Shown here one piece after another: positions 201 to 31,766 of a stretch of DNA of 31,877 bases (its first letter is position 1; every line of letters begins with the position of its first letter). The notes beneath the pieces are model-generated. The model worked only from the letters and a program-made list of their open reading frames with translations, did no database searches and had not been told where the DNA came from. The translations under genes were made by a program, and so were the position numbers. The DNA is from a virus: positions 1 to 31,877 of IMG/VR virus record IMGVR_UViG_3300025853_000376; one strand, written 5' to 3'.

Positions 201-339
201 ATAAAAAAATATTTTAATTATTTGCATAAATATAAAAAAAGTTATTAACAATTTAATTTTGTAAAAAGTAGGTGTAAAAATTAGAAAAGAAGAAACAAAA
301 ATAAAATCTCACTCAAAATCTCCTAGCCAATATACCTAG

Positions 340-400
340 CAGTTTCAGGGCAGTTTCAGGGCAGTTTCAACAGCAGTTTCACCGAGCAGAAACAGTTTCA
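340..400 (+). repeat. Five iteron-like direct repeats of CAGTTTCA
   Basis: CAGTTTCA starts at 340, 351, 362, 374 and 393. The first three copies share the longer unit GCAGTTTCAGG or GCAGTTTCA and are spaced 11 bp, about one helical turn. The last copy is part of a perfect palindrome, GAAAC-A-GTTTC, at 389-399. Such phased repeats usually bind a protein cooperatively. Candidates encoded here are the DnaA-like protein (4301-4741), the replication initiator (2919-3542) and the HTH proteins. Confidence 0.75.
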
Positions 401-424
401 AGAAAAGTTTTTTGTAAAAATGTT

Positions 425-778
425 TTAAGGAATTTTCATATACCAATCAAGGACATCCATACATTCTTCAAGTCCTTTAACCACCTTAGCATAGTAACCT
501 GCTTCATTGAGGTCAGCAACCCATTGCTTTTGTTCTTTGGATGGGTAGCAAGTCTTATCTGCTTTAATCTCTAGGAATAATCCTGCATACTCACTATTGA
601 CTTTACAGATTTGCATATCAGGAAAGCCTTTAACATAGCCAGTTTTCTTGGCTAGTATTGCTTGTTTCATGGATGTTCTTATACCACCTAGTGATGCACA
701 GTATCTTACATTAGGATAAGTGTATTGTATATAGGTGCAGAATGATGATTGGACTAATGCTTCTTTCTTCATAGCCAT
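425..778 (-). CDS. VRR-NUC domain nuclease
   Basis: A 117-aa protein covering a whole VRR-NUC domain, the compact PD-(D/E)XK fold found in many phages. Visible landmarks are an early Glu-Ala-x-x-Gln, a GG-x-R motif near residue 31, G-x-PD near 51-54, the catalytic E-x-K (EIK) near 70-72, and a Q-x-x-W-x-x-x-L helix after it. Family members cut structured DNA and may resolve recombination or replication intermediates. It is the last gene of the early operon. A start at 778 gives MAMKK, and a second ATG lies at 772. A very G-rich tract lies immediately upstream and could affect translation. Confidence 0.85.
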   Translation of the reverse strand: MAMKKEALVQSSFCTYIQYTYPNVRYCASLGGIRTSMKQAILAKKTGYVKGFPDMQICKVNSEYAGLFLEIKADKTCYPSKEQKQWVADLNEAGYYAKVVKGLEECMDVLDWYMKIP

Positions 779-780
779 AC

Positions 781-832
781 CCCCTATGCCCCCCTATGCC
801 CCCTATGCCTACCCCCTATACCCCTTGTTCCC
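781..832 (-). repeat. G-rich tandem repeat, potential G-quadruplex
   Basis: Read on the minus strand, this holds six runs of four to six G separated by 3-9 nt, with the repeated unit ATAGGGGGC. It is striking in such an AT-rich genome. It encodes the Gly/Arg-rich C-terminus of the HTH protein and ends a few bases before the VRR-NUC start codon, so it lies in the mRNA at a gene junction. Four or more G-runs with short loops fit the canonical G-quadruplex pattern. Confidence 0.75.
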
Positions 833-1047
833 CCATCAGTATAGGTCTTACCCTTTATTAGTTGGTACATTAAAGGTTGAGATACTTTGTACTTCCTAGC
901 AAGAGATGAGATAGTTATCTTCTCTGTAGTAGTATTGTATTCTTCTCTGATAGCATCTGCTTCAGCAACAGTAAACTTTCTTCTGGAGTAACCACCACCT
1001 CTACTATCTTTTCTATCTTCTATTCTTATCTTTCTAATCTTTGGCAT
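784..1047 (-). CDS. Small helix-turn-helix protein
   Basis: An 87-aa basic protein. Residues about 27-68 form a likely helix-turn-helix: a helix rich in acidic and Ala residues (AEADAIREEY), then ISSLARKYKVS as the first HTH helix and turn, and QPLMYQLIKGKTY as the recognition helix. The N-terminus is rich in Arg and Lys. The last 15 residues (GGTRGIGGRHRGHRGA) come from the G-rich repeat and look like a non-globular tail. It is probably a DNA-binding regulator of phage genes, but the target is unknown. It starts 3 nt after the stop of the upstream gene. Confidence 0.7.
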   Translation of the reverse strand: MPKIRKIRIEDRKDSRGGGYSRRKFTVAEADAIREEYNTTTEKITISSLARKYKVSQPLMYQLIKGKTYTDGGTRGIGGRHRGHRGA

Positions 1048-2918: not shown

Positions 2919-3542
2919 TTAAAATTTACCATCACCATAATCTCCTCCTTTCTGATGTCTGTGTGATGTAGTGTTATTGTTATTAGTTTTATTACTTCTT
3001 CTCTCCCAAGTTCTTACACAAGCCTTCCAATCTTTCATTTTACTCTTACCTATCATGAAGTTTTTAGACTCATAAAAATCAATAAAAGCATCTGCACATA
3101 CTTTATTTTTTCTTTCATTACAATATTGATGTACCTCCTCAACAGTTGGTTTTTTAAAAGAATCCCCTTTATTATTAATATGTTTATCTTTAGATAAACT
3201 AATACTATCTTTAAAGTTTTCTTTAATACCCCTCTTTAAGTTTTCTTTAATACCCCCTTTAAGAATTCTTATATACCTCCTATCAATTTCTTTAGTACCT
3301 CCTTTGTAAGTGTAATATGTTGATACATAGCCATTTGCAACTAATTCACTAACCCATTTAGAAATAGTAACAGTACTCTTACTATAAAGGTTGGAGAAGT
3401 ATTTATTTGTAGCAAAGCACTCACCATTAATGTTAAGTAGTGCAGTTATTTCAGCATACAATAATTTAGCATTTGCAGTTAGATTCTTATCATATCTAAC
3501 CTCAGCACTTATTATAGCATAGTAGTTTGGTTGTTGTTTCAT
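2919..3542 (-). CDS. Phage replication initiator (winged-helix, O-like)
   Basis: A 207-aa protein. Residues 1-95 form a winged-helix domain of the HTH_36/replication-protein type: LTANAKLLYAEITALLN, then FATNKYFSNLYSKSTVTISKWVSELVANGYV as HTH, and a wing with ITKEIDRRYI-like basic strands. Residues 96-125 are a low-complexity linker with an eight-residue duplication (GIKENLKR/GIKENFKD). A conserved C-terminal segment (PTVEEVHQYCNER to KDWKACVRTWERR) is common in phage initiators that recruit a helicase loader. Its position directly before the DnaC-like gene supports this. Origin binding is inferred. Confidence 0.8.
   Translation of the reverse strand: MKQQPNYYAIISAEVRYDKNLTANAKLLYAEITALLNINGECFATNKYFSNLYSKSTVTISKWVSELVANGYVSTYYTYKGGTKEIDRRYIRILKGGIKENLKRGIKENFKDSISLSKDKHINNKGDSFKKPTVEEVHQYCNERKNKVCADAFIDFYESKNFMIGKSKMKDWKACVRTWERRSNKTNNNNTTSHRHQKGGDYGDGKF
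3214..3256. repeat. 24-bp-period tandem duplication in the initiator gene
   Basis: An identical 19-mer starting AAGTTTTC and ending TACCCC occurs at 3214-3232 and 3238-3256. The 24-bp period keeps the reading frame and encodes the linker duplication. In lambda the origin iterons lie inside the linker part of gene O, so the placement is suggestive, but only two copies exist. Confidence 0.7.
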
Positions 3543-31376: not shown

Positions 31377-31411
31377 AATTATATAATTTTATAGTTGTTT
31401 TTATTAATTGT
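31374..31411. repeat. 38-bp direct repeat, copy 2 (gene junction)
   Basis: It covers the end of the 93-aa gene, its stop, a 2-nt gap and the ATG of the 67-aa gene, as in copy 1 at 31168-31205. The copies are offset by 206 bp and differ at one base. Confidence 0.85.
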
Positions 31412-31660
31412 AAGAGTTAAAAGAGTATTAAAGTTTATCATTCTATATGCTTTTTTTGTCATATCATAAACGCGTATAAGGTTGTATTTGCTCGGCTCGT
31501 ATGGTTGAGGCTTTGCATCTTCTTTAAGTCCTTTACTTACTTTTAGTCTGGCGTTCATTAGTCTGTGTGTGCCATCTTTTTTTATAAAGGTACTAGAAAA
31601 AATTCTTCCATTTGTTTCTCTTATTAGTTCCTTTGCTTTGTCTGTGTTAATTGTTATCAT
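31379..31660 (-). CDS. DUF2693/SH3-barrel-like protein
   Basis: A 93-aa product from the ATG at 31660 (AATAAACAAATG leader, 16 nt after the previous stop); the frame also holds an ATG at 31690, which would overlap the upstream peptide gene. It has the pattern of DUF2693/SH3 beta-barrel phage proteins: GRIFSSTFIKKDGTHRLMNA, RLKVSKGLK, then YEPSKYNLIRVYDMTKKAYR and MINFNTLL. The family is common in phages and function is unknown; nucleic-acid binding is a guess from the fold. The C-terminus is replaced by the repeat-encoded TINKNNYKII. Confidence 0.65.
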   Translation of the reverse strand: MITINTDKAKELIRETNGRIFSSTFIKKDGTHRLMNARLKVSKGLKEDAKPQPYEPSKYNLIRVYDMTKKAYRMINFNTLLTLTINKNNYKII

Positions 31661-31676
31661 TTGTTTATTGTTTTGT

Positions 31677-31766
31677 TTAGCACCCTCCAAAAAGGATAGC
31701 CAAGATTAATAGTAGTGTTAATTGTGTATTGCTCCAGTTAGTAAGGGGCAATTGTCCTTTGCTCAT
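31677..31766 (-). CDS. 29-aa membrane peptide
   Basis: A short frame beginning MSKGQLPLTNWSN and continuing as one hydrophobic segment (TQLTLLLILAILFGGC). It has a good A/T-rich leader (TTTATAAGATG) and lies upstream of the SH3-like gene by 16 nt. Single-span peptides of this size are often missed. It may also be a leader peptide. Moderate to low confidence because of the length. Confidence 0.45.
   Translation of the reverse strand: MSKGQLPLTNWSNTQLTLLLILAILFGGC

Follow-up and report, generated by a model that had tools for sequence, protein, structure and literature searches.

What is the role of an array of G-runs that lies exactly at the junction of two small genes in an AT-rich phage genome? 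The window, which means here the whole stretch of DNA that was analysed, covers positions 1-31,877 of the IMG/VR virus record IMGVR_UViG_3300025853_000376 (31,877 bases; 31% GC), and the array is found near its beginning, between a gene for a small HTH protein and a gene for a VRR-NUC nuclease. A Bacteroidota host is likely for this phage, since the best matches of its large terminase come from marine Flavobacteriia phages (Croceibacter phage P2559Y, 45%, and Cellulophaga phages). Relatives were collected by two scans of IMG/VR, with about 145 relatives from each. No near DNA relatives of the window were found in the phage collection, and the VRR search of bacterial genomes gave zero matches. 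Two cultured phages with related terminases, Croceibacter phage P2559Y and Cellulophaga phage phi17:1, contain neither the G-array nor the GAAACTGC array that accompanies it (see below). The phages with paired arrays form a large, uncultured, marine family which probably infects Flavobacteriia.

The G-run array of the window

The G-array is located at 780..834 on the minus strand, which is the sense (non-template) strand, and contains six runs of at least four G with loops of 4-8 bases. The runs lie at 830-834 (5), 821-824 (4), 812-816 (5), 799-803 (5), 789-794 (6) and 780-784 (5), so that their lengths along the coding strand are 5,4,5,5,6,5, and the ATAGGGGGC unit is an approximate repeat of 9-10 bases. 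A preliminary description had placed a G-quadruplex-type tract at this gene junction, at 781-832; the tract is indeed there, in an extent slightly wider than those limits, and its six runs are far above chance at 31% GC. A four-tract G3 motif appeared in only 3 of 300 first-order Markov copies of the window, and none of 100 dinucleotide shuffles gave a three-run pattern matching the window tract.

G4 prediction points in the same direction. By G4Hunter, 780-834 scores highest in the window (2.48, versus 1.40 for the next site), and RNA folding of the tract predicts a G4 when G4 terms are included, with an MFE of -52 kcal/mol versus -19 kcal/mol without them. A strict four-tract search with loops of 1-7 bases found no G3 or G4 match in the window in spite of six runs of 4-6 G, because one loop has 8 bases, and Rfam gave zero matches in the window at the gathering threshold. 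The in silico G4 fold, together with the retention of the tract in almost all relatives, bears out its description as a strong G4-type element.

The array encodes the C-terminal tail of the small HTH protein (87 aa; 784..1047, minus strand), which has weak family matches only. This tail is Gly/Arg-rich in the window, and the stop codon of the ORF, TAG, falls within the last repeat of the array. The VRR-NUC ORF (117 aa; 425..778, minus strand) begins one base past the final G of the array, and the true start is probably the second ATG, at 772, as suggested by relatives whose proteins start with MKKEA. VRR-NUC is matched by Pfam PF08774 at E=2e-4, a little short of the gathering cutoff, and its PHROG matches are Holliday-junction-resolvase and endonuclease.

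Distribution of the array in relatives and its link to VRR-NUC

To a large extent the array is kept in relatives: 71 of 73 distinct HTH-VRR junctions contain 3-8 G-runs. What is conserved is the presence of the array and not its length, as even phages whose VRR-NUC is near-identical have arrays that differ in length, unit number, loops and phase. At every locus that has one, the array is on the sense strand.

The preliminary description had also proposed that the tract could block or time the translation of VRR-NUC, or serve as a substrate of this nuclease. Neither idea is supported, and translational control does not survive the comparison as a general role, because the gene downstream of the array varies among lineages. 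In a second clade, in which VRR-NUC is about 75% identical and the HTH gene runs into VRR-NUC, the HTH gene contains a short set of G-runs; the full array is found 1.5-2.6 kb further downstream and precedes a gene of 92 residues, named g92 here. More distant phages (L285, L304, L309, L318) have the array before g92 only, while in L274 it lies within the VRR-NUC coding sequence and in L303 between unrelated small ORFs. The window has a g92 homologue as well (31379..31690, minus strand), with no array beside it; in other lineages the paired arrays flank g92 and not VRR-NUC. A translational switch would have its array always at the VRR-NUC start, which was not found, and the array often lies 25-40 nt from the VRR start in relatives. 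Moreover, both the HTH and the VRR-NUC genes occur with zero G-runs in L046/L185, L058, L260 and L263, the very case that the preliminary description had named as counting against its proposal, and which breaks the proposed link between the tract and these genes.

An effect on ribosomes might also be exerted by an array of near Shine-Dalgarno sites, in which AGGGGGU pairs with the anti-SD via one G-U. The A before and the T after the G5 run fit this 7-mer, but the array is often 25-45 nt or more away from any start codon, the closest terminases are from Flavobacteriia phages, and Flavobacteriia hosts are largely without SD use. Such sites would also leave the partner array at 455 bp unexplained, and we regard this explanation as highly improbable.

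Two junctions are irregular. In L071 and L159, which are one contig, a single base difference from L070 at the HTH stop fuses HTH and VRR-NUC in one frame. In L178 (1-222), VRR-NUC and a shortened G-array are present and unrelated sequence replaces the HTH gene upstream, which may reflect a chimeric contig or recombination.

Selection on the nucleic acid

A conserved Gly/Arg protein tail was considered as the reason for the array and ruled out by the variable tails, by a recoding test and by frame independence. Counted from the TYTD motif, the HTH tail has a few to about 30 residues, with varying length, frame and stop position, and in L056, L073, L079 and L081 the HTH gene stops early and the G-runs continue past the stop. 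The tails contain 318 G-runs, versus 38 after synonymous recoding with the window's own codon usage; GGG accounts for 61% of Gly codons in the tails versus 6% elsewhere in the window (18 other ORFs), and G-runs start in all three codon phases. Selection acting on the DNA or the RNA maintains the G-array, and we are highly confident that it acts as nucleic acid and not through the encoded tail.

These results also bear on a selfish or neutral minisatellite produced by slippage, whose Gly/Arg-rich tail helps the HTH protein to bind nucleic acid. The number of units differs between near-identical phages and the window tail is Gly/Arg-rich, as such a minisatellite would have it. Nevertheless, the recoding test, the frame independence, the persistence of arrays past early stops and the recurrence of the array in different genes at a constant distance from another array all speak against it, leaving it with very little probability.

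A partner array at a fixed distance

The other array consists of GAAACTGC direct repeats, four of which lie 11-12 bp apart at 339..380 on the minus strand, with a degenerate GAAACTG beside them at 393-399. In the window there are 455 bp from the start of the G-array to the first AAACTGC, and VRR-NUC happens to be the gene that separates the two arrays in this clade. GAAACTGC direct repeats are found after VRR-NUC in all clades, usually in 3-6 copies with a modal spacing of 11-12 bp, and in the second clade, where there are two G-arrays, each has GAAACTGC copies past the next gene.

A gene-independent scan of IMG/VR, with two GAAACTGC copies as the query, found phages whose VRR-NUC is 37-62% identical, and most of them have a G-array at the same distance. 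For distinct arrays of at least three GAAACTGC copies in AT-rich viral contigs, we searched the 700 bp upstream, and it turned out that a G-array was present upstream of 141 of 150, versus 4.9% of control windows. The distance between the two arrays is 454 bp on average (sd 23; range 405-537 bp; kinship among the phages ignored). Five of the nine unpaired GAAACTGC arrays are, by inspection, coding Glu-Thr-Ala/Pro repeats in unrelated places.

The spacing does not depend on what is enclosed: 456 bp with VRR, 452 with HTH+VRR, 453 with g92, 449 and 464 with HTH and 459 with unrelated ORFs. The G-array is therefore not simply a switch of the nuclease gene, as the distance to its partner is the same whatever gene intervenes. 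Measured from the start of VRR, the positions of the G-array and the GAAACTGC array co-vary (r=0.68), with a distance sd of 21 versus 37 if they were independent, again with kinship ignored; this co-shift is largely made up of differences between clades. A GAAACTGC array without any G-array is found in a few lineages (L046, L058, L260, L263, L291), so the G-array is not indispensable. The same spacing around different genes in a very divergent phage family is good evidence for an undescribed cis site, and we consider the two arrays to be, very probably, one conserved bipartite site. Literature searches found no description of the paired G-array/GAAACTGC element.

Over the whole window, the coding strand has 8 copies of GAAACTGC and the other strand none. 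In L249, L250, L251, L253, L425 and L426, copies of GAAACTGC extend into coding sequence or are contained in it as Glu-Thr-Ala codons, either in VRR-NUC or in another early gene. Triple GAAACTGC matches in bacterial genomes were judged to be unrelated minisatellites and set aside.

Surroundings of the partner array

Between the VRR-NUC stop and the GAAACTGC array of the window there is a T-rich stretch (381..424, minus strand), at a place where other lineages have a hairpin and then a T-run. The T fraction of the last 75 bases before the GAAACTGC array is 0.44-0.48, and in several lineages a terminator-like hairpin with a T-run is found ahead of it. Many relatives (e.g. L063, L065, L257) have a TATATTTGC box and an inverted repeat, TTTAGAATgATTCTAAA, about 150-250 bp past the GAAACTGC array. 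We take TATATTTGC to resemble the Bacteroidota -7 element, and TTTAGAATgATTCTAAA with TATATTTGC could be the operator and Bacteroidota-type promoter that serve the following operon. With the hairpin and T-run before the GAAACTGC array and TATATTTGC/TTTAGAATgATTCTAAA after it, the site extends over the last part of the early operon and probably into the beginning of the transcription unit that follows.

In iteron origins, such as lambda ori in gene O, phased direct repeats lie beside a T/A-rich stretch, and bipartite packaging or attachment sites have two sub-sites at a fixed distance. The GAAACTGC array, with its 11-12 bp spacing and the T-rich 75 bases before it, has the phased repeats and adjoining A/T-rich stretch of an iteron origin, and its distance from the G-array recalls the bipartite sites. 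It differs in that these phages hold separate iterons in the initiator gene, and in that known iteron origins have no G-run array; contact of an initiator, terminase or integrase with the phage arrays is hypothetical. The separate iterons of the window, about four of 23-24 bp and of the TTAAAGGGGGGTATTAAAGAAAAC type, lie at 3209-3305 on the minus strand within the replication initiator gene, in the style of lambda O. They are present in many relatives and missing from others, and likely represent an origin that many of these genomes already have elsewhere, which counts against the function proposed below. Both they and the G-array contain GGGGGGTAT; the idea that they are one and the same binding site finds no support, as the array is present and these iterons are missing in 17 genomes.

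Form of the G-rich half

On the non-template strand, each of the 103 distinct paired arrays has two or more G3 tracts separated by loops of 1-7, the motif of a hybrid quadruplex. The strict four-tract rule (G3+, loops 1-7) is satisfied by 68 of 103 arrays and, with loops up to 12, by 88, so far in agreement with a canonical intramolecular G4; the remaining 15 cannot form one even with loops up to 12, and a canonical four-tract G4 is thus not conserved across the family. By these counts, an intramolecular G4 is less likely to be required than a transcription-coupled hybrid quadruplex/R-loop or a protein motif.

The minimum for a hybrid DNA:RNA quadruplex (PHQS), two G3 tracts on the non-template strand, was described for eukaryotic genes (PMC3905843); the phage arrays share this two-tract rule, and their co-transcriptional structure is a prediction. 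In mitochondrial CSB 2, interrupted G-tracts of variable length stop transcription via a hybrid quadruplex and are proposed to prime replication (PMC5027508). Human CSB 2 (conserved sequence block II) is the nearest working analogue of the phage site: its G-tracts are also interrupted, lie on the non-template strand where the DNA is transcribed, and are variable in length between individuals yet kept, and a similar action is proposed here. Differently from CSB 2, which is an organelle element with two long runs, the phage site has many separate runs and includes the GAAACTGC array 455 bp away, and its R-loop and primer are putative.

Within arrays, G5 is the commonest run length and 88% of runs have an A at -1, versus a peak at G4 and A at -1 in 47% for isolated runs; this preference for A, a further difference from the canonical G4 besides the conserved partner, is more than a G4 requires and may point to a protein that binds the specific sequence. 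It is possible, then, that the G-array is a set of protein sites in duplex DNA or RNA (AGGGGGT, about 9-10 bp apart) which needs no quadruplex and joins the GAAACTGC sites in a loop or nucleoprotein complex. Both run preferences, the existence of arrays of only 2-3 runs and the resemblance of the GAAACTGC partner to phased protein sites fit this. However, the spacing of the runs is loose (mostly 6-13 bp) without helical phasing, the loop bases vary and the binding protein is hypothetical, so that we consider this reading rather unlikely.

Proposed function of the bipartite site

We propose a bipartite cis site, strand-specific and placed where the early operon ends: the G-tract would form its G-rich half and act with the GAAACTGC repeats through a transcription-coupled G4/R-loop, probably an RNA:DNA hybrid; taken as a whole, we give this an even chance of being right. 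On the non-template strand, transcription through the G-array would generate an R-loop or a (hybrid) G-quadruplex, and a phage protein would bind the GAAACTGC repeats, which follow each other at intervals of about one helical turn. The pair may then start or position a phage DNA transaction (initiation of replication or recombination, or packaging), or mark the early-late boundary. That the G4/R-loop is the active form falls slightly short of an even chance, and between a DNA transaction and control at the RNA level the balance is equal.

All genes are on one strand, and RNA and DNA action are therefore inseparable here. Control at the RNA level would widen the initial idea on VRR-NUC: the early transcript could have, close to its 3' end, a G4 that governs its termination or stability or the translation of the last gene. 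In favour of this, arrays are without exception on the sense strand, the RNA G4 folding energy is strong in the window and several relatives, and the GAAACTGC array follows the terminator-like hairpin and T-run in several lineages. Against this, the gene past the array differs by lineage, the three-run junctions of L079 and L140 gain nothing from G4 folding, the constant spacing extends beyond the terminator, and lineages with the same genes lack G-runs. An RNA-level role in this sense seems unlikely.

In its broadest form, the proposed bipartite site would represent a new class in marine Flavobacteriia phages: a G-run array and phased GAAACTGC at about 455 bp, relocating independently of the enclosed genes and starting replication, recombination or packaging via a transcription-driven G4/R-loop. 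This is a tentative proposal and possible, if somewhat doubtful. If the G-half works as a G-quadruplex/R-loop, it would be a natural case of such a structure selected at a fixed geometry in phages, and a testable system for the use of G4/R-loops in replication, packaging or the early-late switch.

Contig ends and minor repeats

Contig ends are found within about 95 bp of the G-array in 8 of 80 cases, and ends also gather at the GAAACTGC array. Examples of contigs ending at the arrays are L094, L099, L112, L114, L138 and L151. Fixed genome ends at the arrays were considered and rejected as an explanation, since contigs would end there equally well if assembly broke at a variable G-rich repeat; the ends probably mark such breaks, at repeats that vary or are hard to sequence. 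Long-range RNA pairing between the G-array and C-rich tracts past the GAAACTGC array was likewise dismissed, as these tracts exist in some lineages only. Besides, the window has an alternating CA/CG tract at 167-199 (GT/GC on the coding strand), which scores as a terminator-like hairpin, and similar CACACGC tracts are found past the GAAACTGC array in relatives.
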